A stretch of DNA of 64,000 bases, from assembly GCA_029204225.1 (NCBI GenBank), contig CM055092.1, positions 13,332,476 through 13,396,475 of the forward strand. The letters are read 5' to 3'. The stretch comes from Diphasiastrum complanatum. Taxonomy: Eukaryota > Streptophyta > Lycopodiopsida > Lycopodiales > Lycopodiaceae. The first letter of the stretch is position 1; every line of letters begins with the position of its first letter. A model generated the notes under the pieces. The model did no database searches and had not been told where the DNA came from. It saw only the letters and a list, made by a program, of their open reading frames with translations. The translations under genes and the position numbers were made by a program. Below, one piece after another: positions 12,830 through 64,000 of this stretch.

Positions 12830-15644
12830 TGTTTAATATACAAAATTTTATTGTGTGTCTATAGCCTACTGGCTTGTATAAATTTGCATGCTTTTTGAAA
12901 TTTTTTATAATTCGTCGATTTTGTATTATGACGAATTTGGATTCTTCTGTAAAACCATTGAAAAAGTTGTAGTATATAGTTGTTTTTTGTGCTAGTCCCG
13001 CCATGTTATGTACTTTTATGAAATGCTGCTCTTGCTTGCTAATGAGATTTTTCCATTCCTTGCGATGACCATATGCTAAGACTTCCACTATTTCTTGCAA
13101 AAAATGTCGAATGATGTCGTAATATGTGCTGCATGTCATAAAAACATAATCTAATCAGTACCAAAAGTATCTAATTTAACTGCACATATTTGTCTATCGT
13201 AGTGTAAAATCAAAATCTTACCATATAATGTGTTATATGATCAATACCCCATGCACTTTGAACTGCATCCACAAATTTATTGGTTGTTTTCTGTATCATT
13301 TGAACATCAATATTTAAAAATTTATCTTTTCTCAAGTATTTCACCATGTTGTCTAACTTTTTCCAAACTTCTACTTTGTGTATACGAGTAGAACCTTCTT
13401 CGAAATCCTGAGTTGCTACAATAATTTCTTTCCAAACCGTGTATTGAACCTTAGATTATTTGCCAGAATAATTTGATAAAAATCTTCGAGCTTTAGATCG
13501 GCCAAAGCTAGGCTTGCATGAAATATTTTCTGTTTTGCATGATAGCTTGTCATCATTGTTTCTAATCTTCCTCCAAAGCCTCTAATTTAACGTGGCCTTT
13601 ATGTAAGCCTGCTTTGGACAACACATTCTCTAATATGGAAATAGCTTCCTTCGCTGAGGCCTTTGGCTCGGAATTCCATGCAAACAAGATGTGAAGATAT
13701 ATTATTTTATCTATAATACGCACCTCCGCATGCAATGTACAGATATGAACATTTCGTAGAGGAATCGGTAGTACAGATTTTGGGATTAGGATCTTTTCAA
13801 CCTCTTGATATTCCTGTACTCCTTGTCATATCTTTTGCTATTTTCATGCAGTACAAACAAGGGTGTTTAGAGTTAGCGCCATGAGATACATTGAACATAC
13901 ATTCTAATGACTTCAGATCTCCTGCTAAATGCCATTCAATGTTAAAAGTGCCAATTTCAGGAATATTGAGTGGAACTCCCTCCATGTGATTTTTTATGGT
14001 GGCAAAATATGATGTTCTACTAAATATCAATGAGAGAATGTTATGGTCTTCTTTCAGCACCTATAAGAGAATACAAAAATGTGATTAGCCTCATAATATC
14101 GACACAAAGAAGATTTTAGATATGAAATCCATATTCAAATGATTATCCCCATTTATTATGCGAAGGAACTGCTATACTTGAAATGCTGCCAACCACCAGA
14201 TATTATTTTCTGATTGAACACTGAAATTGAGGCCTTCTGAGTCTTCTAGATTTGAAAGTGCTCCATTCATGATTGTGAGACTGACTCTTTCCATTTTTTG
14301 TCCTTTTATAATTTCAGACTCATCTAACTTGAGAACAACTATCAACTTGTTATTGACATTCTCATTTGTAATACCGTAAATATTTATATTGAATGTAAAT
14401 AACTGATTAATGTCAATAAATAAATGGTTGGAATTGTTATATGCTAGACTTTCTCCTTTCCAGCAATACACTTCATTGATATGAGATGGATTACCAACTA
14501 TTGTCTGCATACCAAGGTTTAACATATCTTTTTTTTTTAAAGATGAAATGATCGTGGGATTGGAAACTTTTTGATATTTACCTGTGCAAATGCCTCCTTT
14601 ATCATCTTGAACATTGTTGCATATGCTTCCCTACTGATGCTAGAAAAGTCACATGCCCCCTGAAGCAATGTAGTGTCTAATATTTTTTCAACTTCATCCA
14701 TAATGCTATAACTAATTGAATCCTTAATCTTTTTCATTTTGTTATTATTTAACATTGATTTCATAGATTTTCTATGAGCCTAGTGAGTTTTCAATTGGAA
14801 TCTCATCGGCCAAATGGTCTTCAACAACCAATGCTGATCTGCATTGCAAACATAATGTTCATGAAAATGTCAGTAGAAATTAGGACACTCATAGTATTCA
14901 CAACAGTATATAATAAGCAAATCAACAGAAAGTTGAAATGAACAAATAACAAAATTAGTGATTATGAATGAATCAAAAAGTTCAAGCAATATTCAATACC
15001 AAATAAGCTATAACTTACTTGAATGCACGGATTCGTCTTTTTCTATGACCTCCTCTAGATAATAGATCACATATATCCTTGTTTACCAGTCTTTTCCTCT
15101 TGTCGCTTCAGACCTTTCTGTTGAGCACATCCATATCTTTAACAAGAGACAAATATGAGATACGCATGGATTGAAATGCAATTTTTATCTCATCATTACT
15201 AGTTGTATAATGATCCAAAGAAGATTTCAACCTTTGGATCTCCTCCTTGAGCATCTCATTTTCATCCAAACAAGTTTTCATCTTTGTAAATTTTTCTTCA
15301 CACTCCTTTGATATTTTCCTTGATTCCTCTTTCAAATAATGTATTATTTGCATTGAATGTGCATTCCCATAGAGCATCAAATTCTCATAGTTATCCAGAA
15401 GGCCATTTTTACCATGACACATATAGATTATTAACTGACTCACCGAATGAAAATCTAGATGTTGCAATGAACATGGATCAGTAGGATACAATGTTCCTGA
15501 TGACCATAAATCTACATGTTTTAGCTTTTCCTCCCTGTATCGGACCATATCAGAAGTTGACAATTTGGGTTGCTTTGAATTTCTCGTCCTGAGCGGAGCA
15601 TATTCTGGTGATAGATCCACATGAAGATGATAAAGCTTTGTCAT
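12830..15644 (-). pseudogene. Transposase of the H3/Ulp1 element family (copy C), spliced and decayed
   Basis: It starts at 15644 with MTKLYHLHVDLSPEYAP, followed by a coiled-coil stretch (LKEEIQRLKSSLDH). Exons then carry an N-terminal helical part (14764-14537: TLLQGACDFSSISREAYATM), a first acidic block VVLKLDESEI (Asp codon about 14322-14324), a second block WHLAGDLKSLECMFN followed by HPCLYC (Asp codon about 13917-13919), an internal exon ending AWGIDHITHYM (about 13220), and a last exon with WSSQGMEKSH (about 13060). D, D and E with a Cys pair after the second Asp are the expected layout of an RNase-H-fold transposase. Introns at 15020/14840, 14170/14060 and 13220/13120 have GT-AG ends. 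Several stops make it non-functional. Confidence 0.75.
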
Positions 15645-23210: not shown

Positions 23211-25049
23211 TAATCGTATAAAATAAGCTCGACATCCTTAGCAACTTGAAAGGATGTTAGGACAGGAGTAGGATTCTTTACAACGCCCTCAAGCTTAGGC
23301 ACAAAACTCATGCCATTCTGTACAAATGTTTTGATCAACTCTTGTCGCAATCTATATACATCGTCGGAATTGTATGGCTCAAGAGTGAACTGTCATCACA
23401 AACCAGGTGAATGTGTGAATAACTAACAATCACACTAACGAAATAAAAATTGGAATCAATAAAACAACAAATGAGCAAAATTATATATTTTTAATATCTA
23501 CATTGACTTGTAGATTGTACCACTTGAAAAAAAGCTTTGTATTGTACAAGCATACACACTGCAGATATTCAACAAAAATTATTAATATTATGACTTATAG
23601 TTTATTCATGCTATGACAATAGATTTAAAAAAAAAAGATGCATATCAACGATAAATTGTATATACCTTGAGAGATTCAATAGTTATCTTCCCAATAGAAA
23701 TTGCCGTTGTTGGTATTTCACGAATGACATCATGAAGTAGAGAATCAAATTCTCTATGTGTATTTTCAGCTGAGTTTATTTTTACACAGAAAATTTGTTA
23801 CTCCCTCTTTATTTATTTTTATAGAAAGAATATTCGAGCTCCAATGCCGACTGCAACAATCAAAATGAAAATTAGAATCAATTCTGACATGAGTATAATG
23901 ATCAAAATAAAAAGAATCAATAGCATATAACAAAGCTTACTTATTTGCATATGGAATCAAATAGAATTTGGCCACAAGACTGCACTTGATGAAATATATA
24001 TCCCTTTCAAAATTGGTCTCTTCTGTCTTAACAGCACCCAGGAAAAATGGACTGACAACAAAAACAATTTTCTTCGAATCCATACTAATACTATGCTGCA
24101 AAATTTTTTGGCCTGCTTCAACAATCACATCTATGATTTCTGGAGTTTTATCTTTAACCTCTGTAAAAAATTTGAAACCTAATCTATAGCTTCTATTTGA
24201 ATTTGAAAGAAAAAAAATCAAAATCAATAATTTCCAAGCATATCAATTTTATTGCTAGATAAGCCTCGTATTTATTGTAATGGTCAGAATAAAAATAATC
24301 TGATTGGGATCGTATGGGATTCTAACAAAAAAATTATGTACAGATTTTGAATCTGATGCCCCAACAATACTAATAGATTTCTCAGTTATCTTATCAAGCT
24401 CCTCTTGGATTATCTCCACCTTCGGTGAAGAAACCTTCTGAGGTGCTGGACGGATAACAAGAGGAGATAGTGTTTCTGCTTCTGAATCAGAGCTAGAGGA
24501 CAGAACGATCCAGGGTTGCTTTGCAGAGATTACCTTAGGAGGAAGAGAAGCAGTTGGCCTACGAGATCCAGCTTTCTTAGGAACATCCTACTTTATTTTC
24601 CTCCTTGAGGTAGTTGGCAAATCATATCTATCTAGAGGCAGGTCTCTGGAGGTGTTGGTGTTATCCACATGAAGACCTGAATACCGGTCCCGAAGTCGTA
24701 TGAGAATAATAAAATTTTTAGGCATGATGGTAACACGCTTACCACGCACTACCAGAAGACAAGAATCCTCAAAAAACTGGGACAAAAAATCTTCTGTAAC
24801 ACCTGTAAGGCCTGCATGGCTATGACATTAAAACGAACATCTAGCCCAAGTGACAGTGTGACATTCCTAATAGATCGGCTGAAAGGAGCTCTAGAGATCA
24901 ACAATTCAGTTGATTTCTAGAGTTTTCTAATTTTTCTCAACCAGACCTGCTTTCTGCCACGTATACAGCCAGTACCAGGGGGGGCCATGGGCACGGGAGG
25001 GCTGTACAGAGGTTATGGCAAGAGTAGTGGCCTTGGTCCTAGCCATCAT
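23211..25049 (-). pseudogene. Transposon-encoded histone H3-like / Ulp1-like fusion gene (copy A)
   Basis: The start at 25049 or 25046 gives an N-terminus MARTKATTLAITS, matching the MARTK beginning of histone H3. After an indel the H3 core follows: PGTGCIRGRKQ, a KSTELLISRAPFSRSIRN helix region, DVRFNVIAMQALQ, then, after another indel, LSQFFEDSCLLVV and [10 protein letters not shown]. The frame continues through a basic extension and an acidic/serine patch WIVLSSSSDSEAE (about 24515-24475), a good SUMO-interaction motif candidate. Downstream exons carry the protease part: KFYLIPYANK (23937), an exon with HWSSNILSIK (about 23846), one with LYNTKLFFKWYNLQ (about 23530) and a last exon FTLEPYNSDDVYRLRQEL ending at 23211. 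Stops near 24588 and in the H3 core inactivate it. Chromatin targeting plus deSUMOylation is inference. Confidence 0.82.
24475..24515 (-). other. Candidate SUMO-interacting motif in the copy A fusion gene
   Basis: The encoded stretch WIVLSSSSDSEAE has a hydrophobic core followed by serines and acids, as in phosphorylation-enhanced SUMO-interacting motifs. It lies between the H3 fold and the Ulp1-like part. Copy B has KVKIVDTTDS at a comparable position. Confidence 0.45.
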
Positions 25050-26910: not shown

Positions 26911-27040
26911 GTGTAAATTTTTTTTTATAAATTCCTCATTTTCGGCACGGATTTTCATGCATAAAATTTTCAAAATGCTTTAAATTTTCATAAATATTTG
27001 ATCCAAACATAAGACTAACATTATGATTTTGACATATGCA

Positions 27041-27313
27041 GCACATACTAAGAGATCATACAACATTTTTTGCAAATACATATGGAAGCTTGAGTGTATG
27101 GTCATCACAAGGGATGGAGAAGTCACACTGGCAAGCACGAGCAACATTTCATAGAAATACACAACATGGAGGAACCAATGAAAAACGAAACTACAGTTGT
27201 CAATTGTTTCAATGGTTCTACTGCAGAGTTCAGATTCGACATATAACAAAGTCCACACAATACAATAAGTTTAGAAAAGCATGCAAGTTCATACAAGAAG
27301 AGAAAATTAGATG
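27041..27313 (+). pseudogene. Transposase last exon (copy A)
   Basis: An acceptor (ATATGCAG) at 27040 opens an exon encoding HILRDHTTFFANTYG, WSSQGMEKSHWQARATFHRN, THGG-type and LFQWFYCRVQIRH blocks, ending with EEKIR and a stop at about 27313. The glutamate of SQGMEK is the proposed third catalytic residue. The exon itself is intact, but the upstream exons are absent here. Confidence 0.75.
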
Positions 27314-27447
27314 ATTGCTGAGTAGAAGATCATCATTGCTGAGTAGAAGATCATCATGACATGTTCATAATTGCTTTGCAAATTCATTGAACAAGAGAGG
27401 AGCAATACCCAATGTAAATGTATTGATTGTATTATACAAAGTGTCAA

Positions 27448-28500
27448 CTATTCATCATCAGATCTTGTATCAGATTCTATGGTAGCATTGTCATGAAGAA
27501 ATTCTCTGCTAGCGTATGCATCTAATAGATGTGCATTATCCTTATTTCCACTAAGCTCAATATAAGTGGAATACAATGAATAATGGGAGCTTCTTAAAGG
27601 AACATTCCCATCAGTAAAGTCTAAAATGTTCAAAACATAAGATCTTTTGACAAAAATGATCTTATTTGTCTTAACAAATTCATGTCCTCCTAGATAAAAT
27701 GATAAAGCTTTAACTGCCATAAAAAGACTCTTCCCGACTGGACTCAGCTTGGAATGAGCAATATAGATCTCATTCTTCAAGAAATGCAGAAGATAGTGGC
27801 CCAGTCCACTGTCCCTCTGGAACGAGGATGCGTGTTGTCTGAAACCACCTCGTCTCGTAGCAAAATCATCTATTATGAGAGCATCCTGCAATAGGAAATA
27901 TGTTAGCAAAAACACATTGCGTGATTGAAAACATTCAAATGCAAGGAAGATTAAACACTTATACATTCTTCATCATCAGCAGCAACCAGATCAGGATGAT
28001 CAATATAATGACCACATCCTGAAGTGGAATTATCAGTGAAATGCATTAATGATGGACGAGGGAAGCCCATCTGGGATTGAAATGCCGTGAATTTTTCATC
28101 GGATGGTCTGCCTCACCCATCCCTAGCTATATTTGATAAAGTCTTATTCAGACATTCTTCACCGGTCATAAGACCCTCCTCATTATCAAAATCAATACCC
28201 GCAACAAGGTCATTTGTCTCAAAATCTACAAAGTCGGAGAATTCAAAAATTGTGCCGGATAATAAACATAGAACCTCGTCCTCACGATAGTCAAAAAATT
28301 TACATAAATTAGCAGTAGTAAAATATACATCGTCATTAATATAATATACAGACAAATTGAAAAGACATTTCGAATCCTCCATAGATTTGGATTCATCATC
28401 AGATGTATTTTGGCTAATGAAAGAATCCCGGAGAACATCAGTATTTAAATCAATGAAGTCACTTTCTTTATCAGGAGTGTCGATAAGAAAGTGAATTCTG
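27448..28500 (-). pseudogene. Transposon ORF2 (copy A), truncated at its 5' end
   Basis: Exons on the minus strand: 28440-27965 (CLFNLSVYYINDDVYF, TTANLCKFFDYREDEVLCLL, EFSDFVDFE, then MGFPS, DHPDLVAADDEE) and 27890-27448 (ALIIDDFATRRGGFRQ, FQRDSGLGHYLLHFLKNE, AVKALSFYLGGHEF, SSHYSLYSTYIELSG). The intron between them (about 27965-27890) is at the same site as in copies B and C. The last exon is uninterrupted, the best preserved ORF2 exon in the window. The N-terminal part is cut off by gypsy at 28500. No known domain was recognised; TTANLCKFFDYRED vaguely recalls BRO/KilA-N DNA-binding segments, which is a weak guess. Confidence 0.7.
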
Positions 28501-41149: not shown

Positions 41150-42890
41150 AGTGCTCATAAGATCATTGACATATATTACCATCCAAACGATAGATACAAT
41201 CTTACATGTGCATAACCCATTTATGGGATTGTTATTGATATGAATATAGATTGTTACAATCAAGTTGTGTCCATAGTACAATATTGTATTGCAATTTTCT
41301 TATTTGATAAGAAACAAGAATCTTGTCTGAAGATATTTTTTATTGTAGGAGCAATAGTTCTTGCCTGATGTAATTCAGGCTCCAATCTCCCTCCACCTCA
41401 ATACATGTCCAAATTGCATCATTGTATATTATTTTAATATTCTTTCCTTCAAATAGTCCACTTGCTTAAAGTCTTGATCGAGTGGAATCCATTGACTTTT
41501 TTCATCTTTGATAACGAAAGCACATGGAAGATATTTTTATTCTGCATTCTATATCTCCATCTGATTTTTTGTCCCAACCTTCATCCATAAGTTAAGATAA
41601 TAAACTATCTTTTAAATTTTTGCATACAAACATCGTTGGGGTTCTGTGGACACTGGCGCTTGAAAAGAAATCCACAAATATATTCAAAGAAATAAACCAA
41701 CTTAATTGAATTGTTTTTATCCTGTGCTTATCTTTAATGAATTTTTTGCATCATTATATAGCTTGCAACGAAATGATTCTGAAACTGCAGCATATGGAGT
41801 ATCCATTAATCACTTCCAAAACTAGGTAATGGAATTGGGACTATTTGCCCAAAATCTCCTGTTAGTACATAGATTCATAAAAGAAGATTCCACAATCAGC
41901 AAGATCTTTTGTAGTTCTACCTCTATATTGCAATTGTCCAATATCACTGAGTACTACATCTAACACACCTACAAGAGATCCAGTTGGCTCCCATTCATTT
42001 ATATTGGATGGATATAAATCTGCAAGAGAAAAATGATCAAATTGGCAAGTTTAATAATAGATGATTATTATGAATGAGAAAATCAAAGTATGGTAGTATA
42101 TCAATACTCATAGTTGTTTTTTTTGTAATTTTGATGGTTGAATCCTTGCACATTTATCTCTGAATGCATATATAAATGTTGGACTAAAATTTTGGATATA
42201 GATTTTCCTCCTGTTGAAGTTCTAAAATCCAAAATTTTGGCCTTTCAATAAGATTGAAATGATAGTTTTGAAATGTTCCTTTTGATGATGGATGAGTTAG
42301 AACCCAAGAGTTTTTTGAATATTTTCTTGGCACCCATAATCCATTGTCATCTTTCTCATTGAAGAGGAAAACAAAGTCGATTGGAGAGCACAACTTCTTT
42401 GATGGCGCCATTCATTATGTGTAGGCAAAAAATTGAAACACTGAACTATGAATCTGAAAATATTGTAGGCAAAAAGCCATGAATCTAAGAATATGTGTAG
42501 GCAAAAATTTGAAACATTGAACTATTTGGCGCTATGAGTTAACTCTAGTTAACCCTGTAAACCATGATTTGACAATGCATTTACATTAAAGCTACATCGA
42601 TTTTCTCATTTCAACCTTAATGTCATATTCATTTTCAATATTTTTGGGCCTCTTCGGGCTGTGATGAGCTGGAAGGGCAGGCCTCAACATCCAATAGCAT
42701 TTCTACATGTTGTCGGACGAAACATTTCTATATTTAAATAGTTTTTATTTTATTTATATTTGAAAAAAGCTACATTATGTAGAAGCCTGATATCAAGGTT
42801 TCTATTGGTCCACATGGCTACGAAAATGAGAAAAAAAAAGCATCTTTTTAAAAGGCCCTCGTCGGGCTCTAATTTTCTCTTATTTATTCA
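41150..42890 (-). mobile_element. H3/Ulp1 DNA-transposon family, copy D (ORF4 and outer flank)
   Basis: The sequence 41155-42650 corresponds to 23050-21940 of copy A in inverse orientation: ORF4 on the minus strand and the flank outside its start. Farther out, a motif at 42856-42886 (GGCCCTCGTCGGGCTC, then ATTTTCTCT) resembles the outer motif of copy C. The H3/Ulp1, ORF2 and transposase genes are absent. Confidence 0.7.
41340..42411 (-). pseudogene. Transposon ORF4 (copy D)
   Basis: The start at 42411 gives MAPSKKLCSPIDFVFLFNEK, then DDNGLWVPRKYSKNSWVLTH and a break in the next block, which in other copies reads VLVQHVYMHSEIKV. After an intron (about 42115-42020): EPTGSLVGVLDVVLSDIGQ, QYRGRTTKDLADCGIFFYES. 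Farther on: GWDKKSDGDIECRIKISSM, then WIPLDQDFKQ-like and a C-terminal IIYNDA, EVEGDWSLNYIRQELLLLQ. Stops and frameshifts interrupt it. This copy has the best preserved N-terminus of ORF4. Family unknown. Confidence 0.65.
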
Positions 42891-45004: not shown

Positions 45005-45983
45005 AGAGGTCATCTACAACCAATAGCATGTTCCCCCTACCAATACCCTATTCCCCTCTCACACAGAACATCCTCAATTTAGGATATGCCCTCAACTCCT
45101 CTATGGCATATGTTTTTGATCAGCTAATAAGCAATAGCACATTAGTTGCATTTATGATTAGAATATAATGTGTTACTATTGTAAGTGTCATGTGCGTTTC
45201 ACTACTCCGCCTGCTATGGCGATGGCGATGCCAACGGTGACGACCTCGCGAAGCTACTAGGCGTTGCTACTTTCTTCTTCTTCTTCTTCTACTCCTCATC
45301 CTTCTCCGCAGCATTAGCGCTGCCTTCAAGGTGCCAGCTTATATTCCTCGTTCTCTTCCCACCTCCTCCTCCTCCTTTTGTGCTTTGCCTTCCTTATTTG
45401 GAGATCAATGTTTCCCACCCCATTGCAAGCTGCGTCCATACATCGCTGCATGCATCATGTTTGGTCTACAACATGGGCTGGATCGGCTTTCCAACGTCGC
45501 AAATTCTTGCTTCTTTCTCGCTGTGCAAACAACTGTAACTGTTACGGAGATTTGATGCTTGTCGGGGTACTGAGGCTACTCTTGCTGTTGCAGGCTATGA
45601 CTGCTGCTAGACCGCCCTCGGTCTTTGCCTTTCTGTGATTTCCCCTTGAAGCTGTTGGGCAGATCGGCTCTCACTATTTGTGCAGGTAGATCGGTGGCGA
45701 TCGTGTTCCTGAGTGAGACATCAGGCTTCTTGGTCAAGGAAAGGACGTTGATCGGACCTTCGATCGGTCACTATTTTAGTGATGTACGCGCATTGCACTT
45801 TGCGCACAAAAAGGAGCAAGCTGGGATTTGTGAGTAGAATGTAGCTAATTTGAGTTTTGCTTGCAACAATAGATTTGCGTAGATGATTAAGCAGCTGCAG
45901 GAATGTAGTTTAGAGTCCTGTAGTTTTCTTCCGTCGAGTTCCAGATCTAGGTTCACTTAGAGATTAATATACATTCATAAAGC
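45005..45983 (+). other. Probable 5' leader of the methyltransferase gene, possibly with an intron
   Basis: This stretch is more GC-rich than its surroundings and contains TTCTTC and CTCCTCCT pyrimidine tracts (45270-45380), typical of plant 5' UTRs. It has upstream ATGs (for example 45190 and 45210) and several possible 3' splice sites (TTGCTGTTGCAG near 45593, TTTGTGCAG near 45686). A spliced leader is therefore likely but not proven. Confidence 0.4.
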
Positions 45984-47390
45984 ATGGCATTTGATCCGGC
46001 ATCCAAGCAACATGAAGGAGGCAAAGCCTTCCGAAACCTCGATAATTCCTGGAAAGCATTGGATGGAATAAAGAATTCACGAGGCCTGTATCAAAAGTTA
46101 GTCCTGCTGTTTCTTGTGGTAGGTATCAATATTGTTGCATTTTATGCTTTTTCTAGTTTTCTGAAAGGACAGGAGAAAGATAGCCGCCATGGATATAGTC
46201 CCGATCAGCTGGAGCTTAAGCAGTTAGGTATAAGCTCTAACATTCTTATTGTCAAACTGGGCCAAATCAAAGAAGAACTTAGAAATACTCAAGAACAGCT
46301 TCAAATGGCGAGGGAAGATCTAAGAAATACATTGGATCAGCTGGGCGATCTCACACGAGCTCATTTAACAGCTCTTCAATCCGATCCAAATCTAGAAAAA
46401 CTATCCGGATTTGAGAATCGAATGCCTGACAGTGCAGAGCTCTTGACATATATTGAGCCTAGAAAGCTGCCTCTGGGATGGAACCCATCGCTTAATTCTG
46501 ATACGATGACCTCATCTGTTGGGCATAGATGCTTAGAGCAAAAGGAAGACATCAAGCGCTTCATGGACTACGCGGTAGGCGGCGTCTGCCCAGATGACGA
46601 AGCTCTAGCACAGAAGCTGTTGCTTGCAGGCTGTGAGCCGCTTCCTCGTCGCAGATGCTTTGCTCATATACCATCAAACTTCTCTGAGCCGTATCCAATC
46701 CCTCGATGCCACTGGGAGGGGCCGCCAGATGGAAGTATCGTCTGGACTGCCTACGATTGCAAGAGCTTCGAATGCCTCAACACCCGTGCAAAGAGAAAAA
46801 TCTTCGCAGATTGTTTGGATTGCTTTGATCTGAATGGAAGAGAGAAAAACAGATGGCTGTTTGAGTCCAATCAGCTCGCCTACACGATCCAGGAAGTACT
46901 GGATCTAAAGCCAACTGGTTCCATTCGCATAGGCCTTGATATAGGAGGAGGAACAGGCTCATTTGCAGTAAGAATGCGTGAGCACGATGTGACGATAGTG
47001 ACCACCAGCCTCAATTTGGGAGGCCCTTTCAACAACTTTATAGCCCAGAGAGGAGTCCTTCCTTTCTTCATGACCATCGCTCAACGCCTTCCCTTCTTCG
47101 ACAACACCCTCGACATCGTCCATTCCATGCATGTGCTCAGCAACTGGATACCTACAGAAACTCTGGAATTCATACTTATGGACATCAATCGTGTTCTGCG
47201 GCCGGGAGGGATCTTATGGCTTGACCACTTCTTCTGCTTGAGGCCTCAGCTGGACATCTATGTGCCCATGATAAAGCGTCTAGGGTACAAGAAGCTGAAG
47301 TGGGGTGTAGGCGAAAAACTGGATCGTGGGCGTGAGTTGCAAGAGATGTATGTTTCAGCTGTTCTCGAGAAACCGTTAAAAAGATCATAA
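45984..47390 (+). CDS. Golgi type II membrane, putative SAM-dependent methyltransferase (At1g29790-like)
   Basis: An uninterrupted 468-codon intronless frame. Residues 1-36 are polar, about 37-58 form one membrane segment (LVLLFLVVGINIVAFYAF), and 65-125 are predicted coiled coil (KEELRNTQEQLQMAREDL). The C-terminal half, after a cysteine-containing region (MDYAVGGVCPDD, CEPLPRRRCFA), is a class I methyltransferase: motif I IGLDIGGGTGSFAVRM at about 317, then VTIVTTSLN, LPFFDNTLDIVHSMHVL and VLRPGGILWLDHFFC. This matches the plant family of putative methyltransferases typified by Arabidopsis At1g29790, which share an N-terminal anchor and a luminal catalytic domain. Substrate is unknown; related Golgi enzymes act on cell-wall polysaccharides. 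The first ATG after a stop is chosen and gives the expected start. It is the only intact gene in the window. Confidence is high for the fold and moderate for location. Confidence 0.93.
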   Translation: MAFDPASKQHEGGKAFRNLDNSWKALDGIKNSRGLYQKLVLLFLVVGINIVAFYAFSSFLKGQEKDSRHGYSPDQLELKQLGISSNILIVKLGQIKEELRNTQEQLQMAREDLRNTLDQLGDLTRAHLTALQSDPNLEKLSGFENRMPDSAELLTYIEPRKLPLGWNPSLNSDTMTSSVGHRCLEQKEDIKRFMDYAVGGVCPDDEALAQKLLLAGCEPLPRRRCFAHIPSNFSEPYPIPRCHWEGPPDGSIVWTAYDCKSFECLNTRAKRKIFADCLDCFDLNGREKNRWLFESNQLAYTIQEVLDLKPTGSIRIGLDIGGGTGSFAVRMREHDVTIVTTSLNLGGPFNNFIAQRGVLPFFMTIAQRLPFFDNTLDIVHSMHVLSNWIPTETLEFILMDINRVLRPGGILWLDHFFCLRPQLDIYVPMIKRLGYKKLKWGVGEKLDRGRELQEMYVSAVLEKPLKRS

Positions 47391-51084: not shown

Positions 51085-51732
51085 AACAAATACTCTTTGA
51101 GTGATTTTGTATTTCTCCAAAAGGCTAAGCAAAGCTCCCACTTGGATGAAAGATCCCCTTCATAAGAGGAGTTCTGAATATCAAAAAGACCCTTTAAGGA
51201 ATGCCATGTAGGATATAGAAAAATATCAAAATAAAAAAAACAATATTGTTTATTTGCTTGCCCACACCACTCCCAAGGCCTCCCCAACTCCCAATGATCT
51301 AACCATAGTGTCTATAGTCACAGTTAAAAATTGTTAACAGTTCGTAGTATAACTTACTAAATTCAAAAATATTCCCTCCATTGGTTACAAAAAGGGAAAT
51401 ATTTTTACTAGATCTAGAATATGACCGCCACCCCAAATTCGAATCAGGAAAAATTGTAAAATGTTTACATATGCATTCCTTCCACGAGAATGGAAATATG
51501 GGTGCCATCTCCAATTTATGAACGCCATCATCACTTTGGAATGGAGATATGAGCTCCAACTATCTATTGGAATGAAAAAATGAGCGACATTTCCAAATTT
51601 GAATCAAGCATACAAGCATGGAGTTTGGATCGATCGTACATAGTATATAATATAATCAAACATGGGTACTTTGCTTTGCTTCATAGAATCTGGTCATAGT
51701 ACTTTGATGCAACTGATTACTCTATTATTTTT
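51085..51732. other. Left flank of transposon copy B
   Basis: No gene and no terminal motif like those of copies C and D were found. The copy B left end is therefore either truncated or diverged. Confidence 0.4.
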
Positions 51733-54337
51733 TTGATGATGACATTGTATCATCTACATGTGGATATCCCTATTGATTTGGCACCTTTGCAGAGAAGAGT
51801 ATCTGCTGAGGATCGTTCTCGTTACAGGGCAGAAGGAAAAAAAAAATTTGCATTTGTGGATAGATGGAACATTATATCCACAAGATCCAAGCACTTTGAC
51901 ACATCCCATGTTCTCTTCAATAACTCATTTAGTTATATGGATATGCAATGGACATAGTGGATTACTAAGATATTGTGAAAGATTGCGAAACCATGGAAAA
52001 CAACTTTATATGAATAAAGTTCACTTTTTAGAAGGTGAGTTAATTAGGATATCCTCTTATTGTCAGAATAGAGATTGTCATCTCCAAAAGACATTAGAAG
52101 AAAATGAACAACTTAAAAAAAATAATGAATCATTATAGAAGATAACAATCAATATCAAATCAGAACTAGAGCGAATGCAATCAGTCTTACGGTCTATTCA
52201 TATTGAAAACTTACAATTATTGAAGGATAAGTATTTGGCAAAGAAGAAGGCTGAAAGTAAGAAGTGAAAGCGAAAAAGTTGCAAGGATATTCAAACGCTT
52301 TCAAAAGGATTTTATCGAAATAGAAGTATCCGTGCATTCAAGTAAGCATATTCTGATTTTTGTAAGTTTCTCAATGACATTTGGATTTAATTTCAGCTAT
52401 GGTATATTTCTGTTAACTATCTGTTTTTTTTGCAGATCTGCATTAGTAGCTCCTCGGAATATTAAAGACAATGCTTCACTAGGAATGTCATTGGGCACAA
52501 TATTGACTTGCAAATCCATTGAGTGTATCATGATGAACAATAGGATTTCAAATGTAAAGTGTAAAATAGCAGAGTCTTTGATGGTGGACATTCAAAAATT
52601 TTTAGATAAGACTATAGTTCAGGGTGCTTGTGATTTTGCGGGTATTAGCAGGGAAGCATATGCAACAATATTTAAACTAATTAGAGAAGCTTTTAAGCAA
52701 GTTCAAATTAGAAAAGTCCCAATCCCTAGGACATATCACTTGAAGAAAGAGAGGGATACATTAAACATAGGTATGCATAAGATCATCGGTACCCCATTTA
52801 TATTGAGGAGGTGTATGAAACTGATGGAAGATCAATATCTTATAATTCATCAAACAACTTATTTGTTGATCTAAATTACTTGCTAAGATACATCATCACA
52901 TTCTATGATATAACCTTTGAAAAGGTGAATGGCAAAATAATCATAGTACTTAAGTTAGATGAGTCAGAAATTGTGAAAGGGCAGAAGATGGAGAGGGTTA
53001 GTATAACTCTCATGAATGGTGCTCTATCACAAACAGAGAACCAAGAAGATTTCAGATTCAGTGTCCAGTCAAAAAATGATATATGGTGGTTGGCAGCGTT
53101 TCAGGTAACTAGCCTCATTATTACATTACATTACATTACATTAATTTTTTTGGACATGTGCTAAAAGAGGATCATGATATATTATCATGGATATTCTCAA
53201 GGACATCTTATCCTAGGATCATCAAGGACCATATGGATAGAGGACTTCTCAATGTTCCAGGAGTTGGAGACTTCAATGTTGAATGGCACTTAGCAGGTGA
53301 TTTGAAAACATTGAATGCATGTATAATGTCTCTCATGGTGCTACATCAAAACACCCTTGTTTGTAATGCATGAAAATGGCAAAAGATATAACTAGGAGTA
53401 CATGAATTACTAGAGAATATGCAGATCCAAACTGGAAGCCTATGTTGCCTATCCCCTTTAAAAATGTGCATGTTTGCACTCTTCATGCAGAAGTTAGATT
53501 AATAGAAAAGATCGTTTATCTTCATATAGTTTTTGTTTGGAATACTAAGCCAACATCATTAGCAAAGGAAGCTATCTCTTGATTAGAAGATGTTTTATCA
53601 AAAGTAGGACTCCATAAACGACATGTCAAAATTCAAAAAGATGAAAAGCTTTCAGGAAAGAATGGGAACATGCCAACTAAGCCAAGCATAGGAGGAGCAA
53701 AAGCACGTCGTTTCCTATCAAATCATACTGGTAGGGCTTCTAATATTCAACACTCAGTTTGGACAGATATTATTGCTGCTACTCAGGACTTCGAGAAAGA
53801 CGACAAAACCCGAGTATTAAAAGTTGATGTACGGAAAAAGCTTGATAGTATGATTGCTATTTTAAGAAAAGAAAAATACTCTGATATTGATAAGAAAGCT
53901 GTCCAAAGGACTTGTGTCGAGTTTGTTAATGCAGTATCAAAAGCATGGGGAGATGATCACATCACTCATTACATGGTTAGTATTAAATTCTTAAAATGCT
54001 TTCAAATTTTCATATATATTTAGATCCAAACATAAGACTAACATTATGATTTTGACATATGAAGCACATACTAAGGGATCATACAGCATTTTTTGCAAAT
54101 ACATATGGATGCTTGAGTGTATGGTCATCACAAGGGATGGAGAAGTCACACTGGCAAGCACGAGCAACATTTCATCGAAATACACAACATGGAGGAACCA
54201 ATGAAAAACAAAACTACATTTGTCAATTGTTTCAGTGGTTCTACCACAAAGTTCAGATTCGACATATAATAAAGTCCACACAATACAACAAGTCTAGAAA
54301 AGCATGCAAGTTCATACAGGAAGAGAAAATTAGATGA
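51733..54337 (+). pseudogene. DDE-type transposase, spliced (copy B)
   Basis: It starts MMMTLYHLHVDIP and is followed, after a frameshift near 51880, by a coiled-coil part (LEENEQLKKNNESL). Exon 2 (after TTTTTTTTGCAG at 52436) has GACDFAGISREAYATIFKLI. Then VLKLDESEIVKGQKMERVS holds the first Asp (52958-52960), and WHLAGDLKTLN the second (53299-53301), with a Cys pair nearby. The last exon (from 54062) has WSSQGMEKSHWQARATFHRN, with the proposed Glu at 54140-54142. D-D-E order, the motif after the second Asp and the QGxEK context resemble RNase-H-fold transposases found in animals and algae, though the superfamily is not assigned. The second intron acceptor is mutated (ATG where copy C has TAG). 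Stops lie at 52138 and 53373. Confidence 0.78.
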
Positions 54338-54471
54338 TTGTTGAGTAGAAGATCATCATTGTTATCAAATCATGACATGTTCAGAATTGCTTTGCAAATT
54401 CATTGAACAAGAAAGGAGAAATACTCAATGTAAATGTATTGATTGTATTATACCAAAATACAAAGTGTCAA

Positions 54472-55931
54472 CTATTCATCATCATATCTTGTGTCAGATT
54501 CTATGGTAGTATTGTCATGAAGAAATTCTCTGCTAGCGTATGCATCTAATAGATGTGCATTATCCTTATTTCCACTAAGCTCAATATAAGTGGAATACAA
54601 TGAATAATGGGAGCTCCTTAAAGAAACATTCCCATCAGTAAAGCCTAAAATATTCAAAACATAAGATCTTTTGACAAAAATGATCTTATTTGTCTTTACA
54701 AATCTATTTGTCTTATTTGTCCTCCTAGGTAAAATGATAAAGCTTTAACTGCCATTATAAGAGTCTCCCCGACTGGGCTCAGCTTGGAATGAGCAATACA
54801 GATCTCATTCTTCAGGAAATGCCTAAGATAGTAGCCAAGTCCACTATCCCTCTGGAAAGACGATGCGTGTTGTCTGAAACCACCTCATCTTGCAGCAAAA
54901 TCATCTATTATGAGACCATCCTACAATAGGAAATATGTTAGCAAAAATACATTCAGTGATTAGAAATATCGTAATGCAAGGAAGTTTAAACACTTACACA
55001 TTCTTCATCAGCAGCAGCAACCAGATCAGGATGATCAATATAATGACCACGTACTAAACTGGAATCATCCGTGAAATGCAATAATGATGGACGAGGGAAG
55101 CCCATCTAGGATTGAAATGCCGTGAATTCTTCATCGGATGGTCTGCCTCGCCCATCCTCAGTTATATTTGATAAAGTCTTAGTCAAGCATTCTTTACCAG
55201 TCATAATTCCCTCCTCATCATCAAAATCAATACCAGCAACAAGATCATCTGTTTCAAAATCTACGAAGTCGGAGAATTCGGAAATTTTGCCGGATAATAA
55301 ACATAGAACCTCATCTTCACGATAGTCAAAAAATTTACATAAATCAGCAGTAGTAAGATATACATCGTCATTAATATAATATACAGACAAATTGAATAGA
55401 CATTTACACTCCTCTATAGGGTTGGATTCATCAGCAAATGTATTTTTGCCAATAAAAGAATCCCGTAGAGAATCAGTATTTATATCAATAAAGTCACTTT
55501 TCTTATCAGGAGTGTCGATAAGAAAGTGACTAATATCCTTAATAGCTGACTGAACGGAGGATGATGCAAAAGGAGGGTCAACAACAGAAATTTCATCATC
55601 ATCTGAGATATGAACTAACAGGAAAAGTATGAAACCACTCTGATATTCAATCGACATTTTTTGTTGCAATAAGGACACAGTGAACTGCTTTTGAAAAGAT
55701 CAAACAATTTGGTTGACATTCTATCCAGTCTATGTCTGAAAGCTGGGAAGAAATGAACTAGATCAGTATAATGCATGTACTGGAGTGAACCTATGGAGAA
55801 AACACGCTTACTAAGTATATCTATGAATCTAACATAATGTTGATAAAAAACGTCAGAATTCAATTGTGCAGTCCTGAAAACATGTACATATGGCCTCCCT
55901 GGCTCATCCTCAGCCCCTACGGTGGCCATTA
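54472..55931 (-). pseudogene. Transposon ORF2 (copy B)
   Basis: The start at about 55931 gives [18 protein letters not shown], followed by [37 protein letters not shown] and a Cys pair (CPYCNKKC). A frame change at 55678-55615 leads into SDDDEISVVDPP, CKCLFNLSVYYINDDVYL, TTADLCKFFDYREDEVLCLL. A TAG at 55106-55108 stands where copy A has CAG (Gln). After the intron (about 54990-54920) the last exon has IIDDFAA, a TGA where copy A has CGA, and ends at 54472. No family recognised. The CPYCNKKC pair could bind zinc. Confidence 0.68.
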
Positions 55932-57603
55932 CCCCTCCTGCTAGACATAGAACATGCAACCACAGCAGGTGGCTCTCTGAGATACGCAAGTACCAGAGAT
56001 CAACTGCTCTGTTGATCCCAAGGGCTCCATTCTACCGTGCTGTCCGAAACATAACAAGAAATAATCTCGGACAGCTAGTCAGATTTACATCCAGTGCTCT
56101 TCAGTGCCTTCAGGAGGCTGCTGAAGATTACCTTAGTCTTTTTTTTGAAGATTCATTTTTGCTTGCCATCCATTCCAAGAGAGTCACCATAATGCCCAAG
56201 GATTTTTAGCTCCTGATGAGAATGAGGGATAGGTTTTGTAGGTTACACGTATCTCAACCTTCTACTCCCAGGCCAACTCCTGTAGATAGGACTGATCTTC
56301 CTACGAAGCATCCTAGGAAGCAGAGAGCCCCCAAGAGAGATCCAAAGAAAGTAAAGATTGTAGACACCACAGATTCTGTGAAACCTGACCCGGAATCAAT
56401 TGTAGATAACGTTGTTGTTGATAATGCTGTAAATATAGCTACAGTTGTTTTGGATACTGCTTTAATTCCTGTAGATACTACACATCCACCTCCTCCTCCT
56501 CCTCCAAATTTTTATACATATATAGAGTCGGATGAGTATCTTAAATTTGAGAAAGACATATCCGATGCTATAGATATAATTGGTACTCCTTTTTGTTTTA
56601 GACTAGATGAACTTGATTTTAGTATTAATTTTGGAGTTCTAGATTTCTTGGATCTCAAAGACAGACGGACTTCTAGCAGTGATCCTGTGATAGAGTCCGG
56701 GCTGACACTCTTGCAATTTGACATTGCAAGAGATTCATCAAATGAGTTGCTGGTGCTGAGTAACTTTATGCTCCAGGCCTTCAAGGAGAATAATGACACA
56801 TTGTCACAGTGTCTGACAAGTGGATTCACACCAACAACAAAGTATCTGCTCATCTCTTATCATACCAAGTAAGATATATTAAATGCTTCTTGTTGTTTTA
56901 TGTATTAATATTGGCATTTTCAATTTAAATAGTTCTCAAAATTGTCGCTAAAGGACTTTCAATCTTATTTTGCAGTGACCACTGGATTTTAAACCTGATC
57001 TCTATTAAGAGATCTGTAAATAATAGTATCAAAGGTTTTTGTGTCATGATGAATTCGGTGAGAAATACGCATAAGGATGTAGATATATATATATGCCATA
57101 TTTAAGTAGATATATTCCTACAGATGTTTCCCATTCCATGGATTGGGAGATCGTGAGTTTGGAGCTAAACTCTGTCTTTCTTAATAGCATGTTGAAATCA
57201 GTATTTTAATGTAATTGTTTCATTCTAATTCATTCTGTTTCATAATTGATTTCTTTTGTGCTGAATTATTTTGCAGTCACCACAGCAAAATGATTCTTTT
57301 AGCTGTGGTTGGTACACATTATACAATGCAAAGCTATTTTTTGAGTGGTTCAACCTTCAGCAAGATGTTGATATTTCTAAGGTAATAAATTCTGGGTATT
57401 TTTATTTTGAAATCATGATTAGTTTTCTATTTTGTTGATGTTTTTAGCCATTACTAATACATGAATGTTCTATTTTGCAGTTTACACTTCCTAAGTACAC
57501 ATCAAGCCAGGTGTATAAATTCAGACAAGAAATCATCCTGAGCATACTGGCTAGGGCAAGGCTTCAGCCTCCCTTTATTGATGATGGGCAAAGGATGATG
57601 TAG
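55922..57603 (+). pseudogene. Histone H3-like / Ulp1-like protease fusion, spliced (copy B)
   Basis: Exon 1 (to 56868) begins with an H3 fold: [72 protein letters not shown]. Residues around His113, Arg116 and Lys122 of H3 are kept; loop 1 is one residue longer than in H3. A TAG (56207-56209) follows, then the same frame continues to 56868 through a basic part (KHPRKQRAPKRDPKK), SIM-like KVKIVDTTDS, a proline run and a folded part. Exon 56976-57057 has DHWILNLISIK (proposed catalytic His 56980-56982), exon 57277-57381 has PQQNDSFSCGWYTLYNAKL (Cys 57304-57306, Gln in the expected position), and the last exon 57481-57603 ends RMM. H, Q and C are those of Ulp1/C48 proteases. The Asp position reads MNS, so the triad may be impaired. 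The true start is unclear because the MARTK tail is missing here. Confidence 0.85.
55970..56206 (+). other. Histone H3 fold domain (copy B)
   Basis: The encoded stretch aligns without gaps, apart from one extra loop residue, to the alpha-N, alpha-1, alpha-2 and alpha-3 helices of eukaryotic histone H3. The most diagnostic part is [10 protein letters not shown] preceded by [12 protein letters not shown]. The H3 Lys56 position is Arg. The canonical H3 ending after KDI is replaced by a long extension. Confidence 0.88.
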
Positions 57604-57942
57604 TTGTACTAAATTAAGATTAGAACAAATATAGATAGCATAGAAAAAAAAATACATGTACAGAATTCATAGAAAAATATACATTTATATATCATATGCT
57701 ACTCCATTTTATGAATTTGGGAGCACAAAATACATGTACTGATGCCCAACTTGGGCTTTCATTTATTGAATGAAAGAGTGTATACACAGATTTCTACTAA
57801 AGTTTATTTGAAACTATTGTTCTCCCACAATGGTGATTGTTGTAGGTAGATCTTTGCAGCACGTTATCAGCTCCTGTCTTTTTCGCATCTGTGACATGAC
57901 AAATATTAGTGAATGTGAAATTGTAAATGATGACATTTTCTA

Positions 57943-59155
57943 TTATTTTGTTCTATTTTGACATGGCAATAAACATAAAGTACTTACGAGTCTTCCGTTG
58001 ATGATAAATCTGAAATATGTTGGTAGATTGGTTTGTAATAGCATGAGCTCTGTTCTGATAAAATCAAGCTTCCAATGTTCTTCCACCTCAACCATAGTCA
58101 AATATTCATCATTGTAGATAATGCTTATCTCCATTCGGTTTGTGTGACCATTTAGTTTAAAGTCTTGATCCAGTGGTAGCCATGTACCTTCAATTTTCTT
58201 GTATCTCTGGTAGCTAAATGTGAGACTGAGCATTTGCTTTTCGATATGATAACGAAAGATCATTGAGGACTTTTTAATCCTGCATTCTATGTCATTATTT
58301 GTTTTACTATCCCAACCTTGATCCATGCAATCTGACAAAGTCTCATCTGATAAATCCTTGCAAACAAATAAAATTGGTGTCCTACGAACACTAGCACTCA
58401 AGAAAAAATCAACAAATATATGTAATGAGATAAACCAACTTAGGTGAACAATTTTTGAGCCTGTGCTTATCTTCATAGCATTTCTAATATCAATTAGTAG
58501 CTTGCATCTCAAGGATTCAGAAACAATGCTGTCAGGAGTAGGCCACTCATCACTTTGAAAACTAGGCAATGGAATTGCTTCGAGCTTGCCAAAACCTCCA
58601 TCTGTTTGTGGCATATATAAAGTTTCATAAAAATAGATACCACAATCTGCAAGTGACTTCTTCCTCTGTATTGCAGCTTTCCAACATCAAAGTGAATCAC
58701 GTCTAATATTCCTGCAAGTGATTGTGCGGGCTCCCATTCACTTATGTATGATGGATATAAATCTGAAAGAAAAAAACAATGTTGAGACATTTAAATCATA
58801 ATCTGAAGAGCATCAATAAAGAAAATCACCTATGATTGTTGTAGAGTGCATATGTTTTGATATACTTACAATTACATTTTTGATGATCATGAGGATTGAT
58901 ATCATGTACTTTGATTTCCGAATGCATATATACATGTTGTACTAGGACTTCCGATATAGATTGACCTCTCGGGGTAGTCTTAAACTCCAAAATTTTTGCT
59001 TTCCAATAAGATTTGTAAGTCATTTTTTGCTCTTTTCTTTTGTCGAAAATTGTTCTTTGATGATGGATGCAACAATACCCATGAGTTCTTCATATATTTT
59101 GTTGGCTTCCAGTTATCAGATTCATCTTTCTCATTGTAAAGAATCACAGAATCGA
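57943..59155 (-). pseudogene. Transposon ORF4 (copy B), two exons
   Basis: Exon 1 begins near 59155 (AIDSVILYNEKDESDNWKP, SWVLLHPSSKNNF, VLVQHVYMHSEIKV) and ends at a donor (GTAAGTATAT) near 58868. Exon 2 starts after TTTTTTTCTTTCAG near 58766: DLYPSYISEWEPAQSLAGIL, VGKLQYRG; a single-base shift near 58672 separates it from MPQTDGGFGKLEAIPLPS, IVHLSWFISLHIFVDFFL, TPILFVCKDLSDETLSD, GWDSKTNNDIECRIKKSSM, WLPLDQDFKLNGH, MEISIIYNDEYLTMVEVEE and FRFIINGRL. The C-terminal 70 residues could be a small beta-grasp-like domain, a guess. No known family. The length would be near 380 residues. Confidence 0.68.
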
Positions 59156-59202
59156 TTGCTTAAGCTCTCAAAGTGATTTGGTCACTTTGAGAGCTTAAGC
59201 AA
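59156..59202. repeat. Perfect 21-bp inverted repeat with a 5-base loop
   Basis: The left arm (59156-59176) begins TTGCTTAAGC and ends AAAGTGA; the right arm (59182-59202) is its exact reverse complement. The loop is TTTGG. The left arm is part of the ORF4 N-terminal region of copy B and the right arm opens the leader of the copia at 59203, so the palindrome marks the junction of the two. Confidence 0.97.
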
Positions 59203-59414
59203 GAGTGTGTTCAGGTTGGTTTCAATTTGTAATCCATTCTTAGTGTGTGCAAAGTGTTGCATGTGTTTTCTATCTTCCTTTCTATGCTTGGAAACCAGCC
59301 AGGTTCAAGATAGAAGTGTTTTAGGGTCCTAGATCTTCTAAGATCCCCTGATGAGAGAAAAGTGAGTGCTAAGTGCATTAGGACAGAGCCTAGAATTGAA
59401 GAATCATTATATTC

Positions 59415-60254
59415 ATGGCTTCCAATGGTGGGATCATGTTAGAAACTAATGATAGGTTGAGATCATCAAACTACTCTACCTGGAAAGTGAGGATGGAGTC
59501 CTTACTTGAGTTGAATAAACTCATGGACGTAGTTGCAAGAATTGAAGAGAGACCATCCACAGTTCAAGAGCAACAAAGGTTTGATAAGAAGGCTAAAAGG
59601 GCTTTTCATATCATTAAAATGAATGCTACCAATGAGCTTCTCAAAGAAGTTGGTAAAAGTCAAAGTGCAAGTGAGGCATGGAATGCCTTGAAGAAGCTCT
59701 TTGAATCAAAGTTCACAACTAGGGTAATGACCCTAAGGAGGCAAATATTTTCTAGTAGACAAAGAGGGGGAGAAAGTGCTCATGCATTTGTCTTGAGGGT
59801 TAAGTCCTTAAGTGATGATCTAGCATGCATTGATGAAAGCATAAAAGATGGTGAAATAGTCCAAGTTATGTTGAATGGTTTGCTAGATGAACATGCTAAC
59901 CTTGTGCAAAGTTTTGCCATTCAAAGAGTCTTGCCAAGCATGGTTGACTTGCAAGAAATCTTATTGGCTGAAGAACATAGGATGCAATCAAAGCTTGATG
60001 GTGCATCCTTGCAAGGTGGAGGTGAGGAGGCTTTTTTCACAAAAGGCAAAGTCAAAGGCAAAGGTAAAGGCAAAGGGAAATGGTTAAAAGGTGGTAACTT
60101 GGATCATGATGATCACTCTTCCTCCTCCTCTTCTACTTCTTCTATAAAGAAAGATAAGTCAAAGTTCAAGTGCCTTTATTGTGGGATAAAAGGTCATTTT
60201 GCTAATGAATGTCATAAGAAGAAAAGACAGCAAGTGAGAGGCAAGGAAATCTAG
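59415..60254 (+). pseudogene. Copia gag with zinc knuckle
   Basis: A 279-codon open frame: MASNGGIMLETNDRLRSSN, TWKVRMESLLELNKLMD, SASEAWNALKKLFESKFTTR, SAHAFVLRVKSLSDDLACI, QSFAIQRVLPSMVDLQEILLAEE, a KGKGKGKGK-type basic linker and the complete knuckle CLYCGIKGHFANEC. It stops at 60254, where a frameshift separates it from protease. The knuckle is the packaging domain. This is the best preserved gag in the window. Confidence 0.9.
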
Positions 60255-63183: not shown

Positions 63184-63304
63184 GGGATCAAGTCATTGCC
63201 AAAGAGGTGGAGTATGAGCAATTTTTGAAAGAAGCTATTCATAAAGAATAGAGTGTTTCCATTTACTTATGTTTACCATTGGAAATGAATATGAAGTCTG
63301 AAGA

Positions 63305-63816
63305 TATTTCATATTGTAGAAGCAAGAGTTCTTGCCTGATGTAATTCAGGCTCCAATCTTCCTCCACCTCAATACATGTCCAAATTGCATTATTGTATAT
63401 TATTTTAATATTCTTTCATTCAAATAGTCCACTTGCTTAAATCTCTTGGTCGAGTAGAATCCGTTGACTTTTTTCATCTTTGATAACGAAAGCACATAGA
63501 AGATATTTTTATTCTGCATTCTATATCTCCATCTGATTTTTTGTCCCAGCCTTCATCCATAAGTTCAAATAATAAACTATCTTTTAAATTTTTGCATACA
63601 AACATCGTTGGGGTTCTGTGTACATTGGCACTTGAAAAGAGATCCACAAATATATTCAAAGAAATAAACCAACTTAATCGAATTGTTTTTTATACTGTGC
63701 TTATCTTTAATGAATTTTTTGCATCATTATATAGCTTGCAACAAAATGATTCTGAAACTGCAACATCTGGAGTATCCATTAATCACTTCCAAAACTAGGT
63801 AATGGAATTGGGACTA
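63305..63816 (-). pseudogene. Transposon ORF4 C-terminal fragment (copy E)
   Basis: It matches 41325-41830 of copy D closely. Readable parts are FVDLFSSANVHRTPTMFVCK, GWDKKSDGDIECRIKISSM and a C-terminal EVEEDW-like and QELLLL stretch in broken frames. It starts near the end of the copia RNase H and ends abruptly at 63816, where a copia integrase fragment begins. Confidence 0.7.
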
Positions 63817-63819
63817 CCC

Positions 63820-64000
63820 CACCATAATTCATGTGGTATCATGTGAGAGACACTAGACTTCCCTGTCATGTTCTGAATGTATGCAGTTGTAGCTACTTCT
63901 TCAGCCCACAGTACTCTTGGAGATTTCGAGTAGGCCATCATGCATCTTGTAGCTTCCATCAGGGTCCTATTTTTCCTTTCTGCAACACTGTTGTGCTGTG
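63820..64000 (-). pseudogene. Copia integrase fragment at the window edge
   Basis: On the minus strand the sequence reads, after a damaged start, RKNRTLMEATRCMMAYSKSP, VLWAEEVATTAYIQN and SHMIPHELW, which is the C-terminal part of a copia integrase catalytic core. It continues beyond the window. Confidence 0.82.

Follow-up and report, generated by a model that had tools for sequence, protein, structure and literature searches.

A transposon gene that almost certainly encodes a histone H3 fold fused to a C48 (Ulp1-like) cysteine protease was identified in Diphasiastrum complanatum (assembly GCA_029204225.1, contig CM055092.1, positions 13,332,476 to 13,396,475), in a stretch of 64,000 nucleotides which was analysed at its full length and is called the window below. 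The gene (55898-57603 of the window, +) lies in a dead, decayed copy (51161-59158, +) of a DNA transposon designated family A. The fusion is repeated in other copies of family A and conserved in three more families (B, C and D) of the same genome, and its protease part carries a signal of selection. Taken as a whole, the best explanation, with a probability of roughly 0.5, would be a conserved gene of a transposon with terminal inverted repeats (TIRs), whose chimeric H3-C48 protein acts on silencing.

The fusion gene in the window and in four transposon families

The H3 core recognised in the initial annotation was real. It extended from 55937 to 56203 (+) and matched the Pfam family Histone (PF00125, E 1.4e-26) and H3 chains of the PDB (E about 2e-21). 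Four exons were recognised in the window, with limits set by eye using the splice sites of other copies. Exon 1 (55898-56868, +) covered the H3 tail, the H3 fold, the linker and the N-terminal part of the protease, exon 2 (56976-57164, +) carried the DHW and MNS motifs, exon 3 (57277-57381, +) read PQQNDSFSCGW, which includes the Q and C motifs, and exon 4 (57481-57603, +) formed the C-terminal end. The H (DHW), Q (PQQ) and C (SCGW) motifs expected for the protease were all readable, and they were located in exons 2 and 3. Three introns were found where four had been supposed, and the start had been placed at 55922, while the start codon and the first 13 residues belong to about 970 bp which other copies have between window positions 55896 and 55898, and which are deleted here.

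The decay of the window copy was visible at several points. A TAG stop stood in the H3 part (56207-56209), with the same frame open again to 56869, the frame of exon 2 was broken, the splice donor after 57164 was lost, and the right end of the element was truncated at 59158. The open piece 56210-56869 alone gave no C48 match by Pfam. The C48 score comes not from the broken exons 2-4 of the window but from another family-A copy, L019.

The window's own assembly (G000, 1.74 Gb) was searched for family A, and the best 40 of 2788 first-look candidates, window included, were scored; all 40 aligned at 90-100% over 1352-1682 of the 1682 bases. Twenty genomic regions with flanks were retrieved, and 21 copies, window included, were compared. 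L019 (93% identical to window 55922-57603) was open through all four exons and gave a protein of 491 aa, of which the last dozen residues lie beyond the stop of the other copies. Both domains were read in this one protein, Histone at aa 28-123 (E 1.5e-24, 87.0 bits with a Pfam cut-off of 26.4) and Peptidase_C48 (PF02902) at aa 326-450 (E 7.9e-9, 36.1 bits with a cut-off of 20.7), which confirmed the proposed fusion. The stretch of exon 1 that runs from MDRRKQTRR through the first protease part was free of stops and frameshifts in L018, L019 and L027 (3/21). By script, seven of 11 copies could be spliced, two of them fully open, namely L019 and L027, the latter with Phe replacing the catalytic Cys; each of the other four was without one splice motif sought by the script. 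Two copies, L012 and L013, lay in opposite orientation on C9, in stretches separated by about 0.5 Mb; the stretches agree at 99.5% of positions along about 9.7 kb and are, judged from this alignment, a recent duplication.

The other families were obtained by searching the same assembly with Arabidopsis CENH3, with 150 of 5403 candidates scored. Thirteen matches at about 108 bits resembled host H3 genes, and 137 scored 62.7-77.4 bits; 15 loci of the weaker group, picked mainly for long open frames, were retrieved. They were divided into family A (L035, L045, L046), B (L036, L039), C (L033), D (L041, L042, L044) and a stand-alone type P (L034, L037, L038, L040, L043, L047). In the nine loci of families A-D, the H3 fold and linker continued into the protease part, with HW and MN motifs readable across the families. 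A representative of each of the families B, C and D was 32-33% identical to L019, with the same domain order. With one member per family, Pfam recognised Histone in 4/4 and C48 in 2/4 at E <= 0.1, L033, one of the two without C48 match, having been cut before exons 3-4. L044 of family D, with all four exons, was open throughout for 495 aa up to the end of the retrieved stretch. In a search with family D, 86 of 12652 candidates were scored. By hand count of the rows listed, at least 55 of the 86 gave a single alignment block that started at residue 1-2 and reached residue 349 or beyond, and at least five of these blocks were free of internal stops.

One uninterrupted frame from the H3 fold through the linker into the first protease part was read in L018, L019, L027, L044, L045 and L046 (L046 was used for exon 1 only), and the junction of exons 1 and 2 was in frame in every family, reading NDHW in A, NKHW in B and D, and NHHW in C. 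Two objections had been foreseen in the initial annotation. An H3 frame never joined to the protease is contradicted by the less broken relatives of families A and D, in which the two are joined, and a host pseudogene landed in one copy only by the H3 fold in all of families A-D. A single-copy accident was ruled out by the repeated copies of families A and D.

The H3 folds of families A-D formed one group apart from type P (support 91/84, below the star level of the tool). Most type P loci had a proline-rich N-terminal part and ...KWLQDIRSYQKSVKFLIPRAPF...RRLRRERN, usually followed by a stop, and no protease was seen nearby. In L037, a frame upstream resembled by eye the N-terminal part of the transposase described below. 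Type P was rejected as part of the same element, as neither transposase nor protease was found within about 6.2 kb upstream and 1.4 kb downstream of one copy.

Selection and properties of the two parts

Substitutions were compared in 19 family-A copies, i.e. the 21 copies minus L013 (near-identical to L012) and L022 (diverged). Sites with a second base in at least three copies (shared) were set against sites with one deviant copy (singleton), and sites between were left out; the p values are rough, since sites share ancestry. Overall, 66 silent and 70 replacing shared substitutions stood against 74 and 190 singletons (Fisher p 6e-5). The silent/replacing counts for shared and singleton sites were 35/27 and 39/99 in the protease (p 2e-4), 15/14 and 15/39 in the H3 fold (p 0.054), 10/21 and 13/35 in the linker (p 0.62), and 6/8 and 7/17 in the tail (p 0.49). 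From these counts the singletons look neutral and the inherited changes filtered; the filtering is clear for the protease and a trend for the H3 fold. A cruder count over all pairs of the 21 copies agreed in direction, with a ratio of change at codon positions 1+2 to that at position 3 of 0.57 for the H3 fold, 0.62-0.75 for the protease and 1.06 for the linker. A stronger sign of presumed selection on the H3 part than the substitution counts within family A is that all four families keep the H3 residue at 31 of 83 positions of the fold. Because the domain order is the same in all families, the gene order is the same in family D, and silent changes are enriched, the fusion was probably retained by selection.

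The N-terminus of the H3 part read MARTKQT in L033, L042 and L044, MARTK-stop-IARL in both family-B copies (L036, L039), and mostly MDRRKQT in family A. Position 9, a lysine in H3, was L in B and D (L036, L039, L042, L044), P in C (L033), and mostly D in A, with E in L011. Seven H3 positions were invariant across A-D, R83, H113, R116, V117, T118, D123 and L126, with the numbering and the roles of the listed positions, here and below, being what we take them to be in H3. A model of L019 aa 1-130 (mean predicted local distance difference test score, pLDDT, 66; predicted template modelling score, pTM, 0.40) contained helices at 35-48, 55-67, 78-106 and 113-129, which is the order alphaN-alpha1-alpha2(long)-alpha3. 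All 50 PDB matches listed for this model were H3 chains of nucleosomes or histone complexes, with a best E of 8.9e-6, template modelling (TM) scores of 0.38-0.40 and root-mean-square deviations (rmsd) of 10.7-23 A; given these TM and rmsd values, the packing of the helices is poorly modelled. Another model, of exon 1 from six rows (mean pLDDT 39.7), served for helix order only.

In the protease part, both residues of the HW motif were invariant across A-D, as were the residues MN. At the catalytic positions H was found in 4/4 families, N for the usual Asp in 4/4 (by eye), QQ in 4/4 and C in 3/4, with L033 read past a stop for QQ and C. Both family-B copies had Tyr at the position of the catalytic Cys.

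Possible action of the protein and rival explanations

The protein is predicted to consist of a short H3-like N-terminal tail, the H3 fold, a basic and proline-rich linker and the C48 cysteine protease. Its H3 part would pair with H4, and host histone chaperones would bring it to chromatin or into nucleosomes, where the tethered protease could free silencing factors or the transposition complex of the small ubiquitin-like modifier (SUMO) or of a similar one. The element might then be expressed or mobilised. Such a chromatin-anchored deSUMOylase is proposed tentatively, at somewhat less than even odds. An anti-silencing role is attractive because K9 is absent and the K4 region is kept (ARTK or KQT, in the families with a readable start); since position 9 has no lysine, H3K9 methylation would be impossible at this site in nucleosomes built with the element H3. 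In its furthest form the proposal would make the protein a nucleosome component supplied by the element, that is, a chaperone-deposited H3 variant with the K4 region, no K9 lysine and a built-in SUMO protease, which would block both the H3K9 mark and SUMO-dependent silencing factors; this form is rather unlikely.

Several points weigh against the proposed action. Many copies of the gene are broken. The ARTK start is inexact in family D, where L041 begins with MAQMKQT and L052 with MAQTKQT, and in L033 a lysine is displaced to position 10. The selection signal of the H3 fold alone within family A appears to be a trend only. Asn occupies the place of the usual triad Asp of C48 enzymes. Of 3637 candidates, none proved to be a relative of the linker-protease part at E <= 0.01 (length limit applied), so the substrate can not be read from a characterised homologue; SUMO is what we infer as a putative one. 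In addition, all four families share the H3 residue at just 8 of 16 listed DNA-contact positions and 14 of 29 H4-side positions, thus competence for nucleosomes is not assured.

These last counts also bear on a different explanation, in which the H3 fold never enters nucleosomes and gives the transposition complex a platform for dimerisation or DNA binding, or acts as a decoy that H4 and histone chaperones bind, with the protease processing proteins of the element instead of SUMO conjugates. It would fit that the tail is short, that the protease is without a characterised relative, and that at half of the listed DNA-contact positions and about half of those on the H4 side one family or more departs from H3. 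A pure dimerisation role leaves unexplained, however, that the N-terminal ARTK or KQT was kept in families about 32% identical, and we regard this explanation as somewhat unlikely.

The H3 part might also be a captured CENH3, steering insertion into centromeric chromatin or persistence there; CENH3-directed integration of retrotransposons has reportedly been the subject of an earlier study. At eight positions that are the same in three plant CENH3 sequences but different in H3, six element rows matched CENH3 three to six times and H3 zero to three times (one and five times, respectively, in P0004, a metagenome protein described below). The residues P63, A65, T75 and L89, together with W84 in B-D, are suggestive of CENH3, as far as the three plant references allow. 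A longer loop 1 is a feature of CENH3, and this loop had 11 residues in family A (+1) and 14 in D (+4), compared with 10 in H3 and 11-12 in plant CENH3. Forcing the elements to group with H3 cost more (log-likelihood, lnL, 8.8; p value of the approximately unbiased test, p-AU, 0.046) than with CENH3 (lnL 4.0, p-AU 0.066), where elements and type P were moved together and three plant CENH3 sequences served as references. On the other hand, overall identity to H3 and to CENH3 was about equal, the unconstrained tree put the elements in neither group, MPKD and ARTKQT are H3-like, and loop 1 in B and C had the 10 residues of H3. The copies were spread over many contigs, a spread taken by contig alone. 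A captured CENH3 is on balance improbable.

Passive capture of a host H3 gene beside a protease gene, which would leave the H3 part without function, is very improbable. The low share of family-A copies with an open exon 1 would agree with it, and capture of H3 followed by decay is known from fungal hAT elements, according to the available part of that source (PMC6710886), but the fusion was kept in four families, silent changes are enriched overall, and many copies hold long open frames. Hardly credible is a misreading of two adjoining genes as one, for which it speaks that exons 2-4 are connected by splice-site consensus alone, but which disagrees with the uninterrupted frame of six copies and the in-frame junction of exons 1 and 2.

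Anti-silencing genes captured by transposons were known before, as were transposons that carry either H3 or Ulp1. In the present gene a histone and a protease occur in one protein, and they stayed joined during the divergence of the families, which are now about one third identical. Provided that nucleosomes take up the histone part, a selfish element would encode a chromatin-anchored protease and would offer a natural experiment on how strongly SUMO and H3K9 methylation restrain transposons, for which L019 and L044 are natural open reading frames.

The transposon, known systems and other features of the window

The initial annotation had placed the gene in a repeated element beside a transposase, as was indeed found. 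The element is about 9.5 kb long, a sum of the window part and two missing stretches, with no single copy read from end to end, and holds four genes, i.e. the transposase, gene 2, the fusion gene and gene 3. At its left end 35 of the 39 other scored matches began at query 3155-3168 (window 51154-51167), and beyond the right truncation all 15 copies inspected continued past the position matching 59158 for about 490 bp to a common end. The left TIR of 35 bp (CATAAGAGGAGTTCTGAATATCAAAAAGACCCTTT, 51161-51195, +) matched the reverse complement of the right end (...CTCCTCTAATG) with two differences, the right end being seen in 9 of 10 copies. The element starts with CATAAGAGGAGTTCT... in the window and with CATTAGAGGAGTTCTCAATATCAAAAAGACCC in other copies. 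A 3-bp duplication (TGA) was present in one of five copies with both ends read and absent in four, so a target site duplication is not established.

The transposase gene was traced in pieces by tblastn (51742-54265, +). It had 29 relatives from metagenome and public sources (E down to 1.5e-119), two of them labelled 'hypothetical protein'. Twelve members gave a best Pfam E of 0.0091 and no family common to two members among the 25 of 52 families listed, and classification by Pfam and PDB gave only weak, mostly coiled-coil matches. The conserved motifs KLDE, EWHLAGDLKTLKCM and HxCTLH suggest an RNase-H-like enzyme. Among the five copies with both ends read, none had the 8-bp duplication sought for hAT or a duplication of 8-11 bp, which is the length made by Mutator-like elements (MULEs). 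No MULE model was found for the twelve members, within the listed families, or for the window pieces. CACTA/EnSpm elements end in CACTA...TAGTG and make a 2-3 bp duplication; the ends here are CATTAGAGG...CCTCTAATG, which do not agree with that group. Neither an integrase-like (Ginger1) nor a KDZ model appeared in the same listing for the twelve members; a remote similarity may exist. L035 resembles an internal-deletion derivative, with the transposase frame joined directly to the H3 frame as one open frame.

Gene 2 (54989-55896, -; tblastn with a frame of L017) is divergent from the fusion gene, and gene 3 (57982-59158, -) was assigned by tblastn at 58686-57982 and by eye upstream of this. 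No Pfam family above cut-off was found for the pieces of either. The family-D element L052 contained a transposase, gene 2 on the opposite strand (26% identity, E 4.8e-17) and a fusion gene, in the order and orientation of the window, and further down a frame resembling by eye the start of gene 3. In its own fusion gene the H3 fold lacks some residues (HGKPKD), and HQ stands in place of HW. TIRs of L052 were not recognised among seven inverted pairs.

Ulp1 domains in DNA transposons, cited as known in the initial annotation, are documented for plant VANDAL elements of the MULE type (PMC13317346) and for Ginger1 (PMC2836005), in the portions of these papers available. The KIU (Kaonashi) genes of VANDAL elements combine a VANC gene with a captured Ulp1 domain, and VANDAL-group elements relieve methylation of their own kind, according to the same portion (PMC13317346). 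KIU and the present gene are alike as accessory genes of a DNA transposon with a captured Ulp1 domain, but the partner of Ulp1 is VANC there and a histone here, and KIU elements are Mutator-like, unlike the present element, whose transposase is without Pfam match. Ginger1 transposons carry a C-terminal Ulp1 or OTU domain and so share with our element an Ulp1-type cysteine protease domain inside a DNA transposon; it is fused there to a Gypsy-integrase-like transposase, and no histone is mentioned in the accessible text (PMC2836005). Capture of SET and TET/JBP genes by transposons is reported in the part available of PMC12730594.

H3-like genes are known from fungal hAT elements, such as H3L of Pyrenophora tritici-repentis and, in Pseudocercospora fijiensis, 784 copies in 471 hAT repeats (PMC3538342, PMC6710886, each in part). 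As here, H3 is carried and multiplied in TIR DNA transposons and has diverged from host H3. The fungal elements differ in having a hAT transposase and an 8-bp target site duplication, the accessible text of neither paper contains 'ulp1', and the amplified copies of Pseudocercospora fijiensis were inactivated by repeat-induced point mutation (RIP). Since H3 in a transposon is already known from these fungi, at least from the parts seen, the novelty would be the fusion and its long conservation. The initial annotation knew of no H3 fold fused to an Ulp1 domain, and no report of such a fusion was found in titles and abstract beginnings of the open-licence literature, a scope outside which subscription papers and Repbase lie.

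The unnamed metagenome protein P0004 (391 aa), encoded on a contig of 4779 bp, likewise combines the two domains, with E 1.9e-38 for H3 and E 4e-15 for C48. In contrast to the element, its H3 is near-canonical (65/84 positions), and profile comparison aligned the H3 part only. Because only the H3 parts are joined by this comparison, the pair was probably fused at least twice, P0004 being probably independent. The longest contig of P0004 and that of P0016, a transposase relative, are both 4779 bp from different sources, by coincidence or as the same contig. P0001 (Actinidia) and P0002 (Phalaenopsis) were rejected as relatives of the fusion, each being two H3 copies in one gene model. Relatives of the transposase and of P0004 were sought in viral contigs, and none was confirmed.

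Several decayed elements are contained in the window. A second, diverged and decayed H3-linker-C48 gene was found by tblastn with L019 and family-D proteins (23258-24988, -), and relatives of gene 3 at 41343-41909 and 63272-63826 (both -). Further copies of transposase and gene 2 of the same transposon group lie at 12928-15635 (-) and 26961-28494 (+). A Copia-type gag frame (59400-60251, Retrotran_gag_2 E 1.2e-20) stands just past 59158, where the right end is missing. An open methyltransferase frame of 469 aa (45981-47390, +; Methyltransf_11 E 6.4e-10, Methyltransf_29 E 1.7e-9) is probably a host gene.

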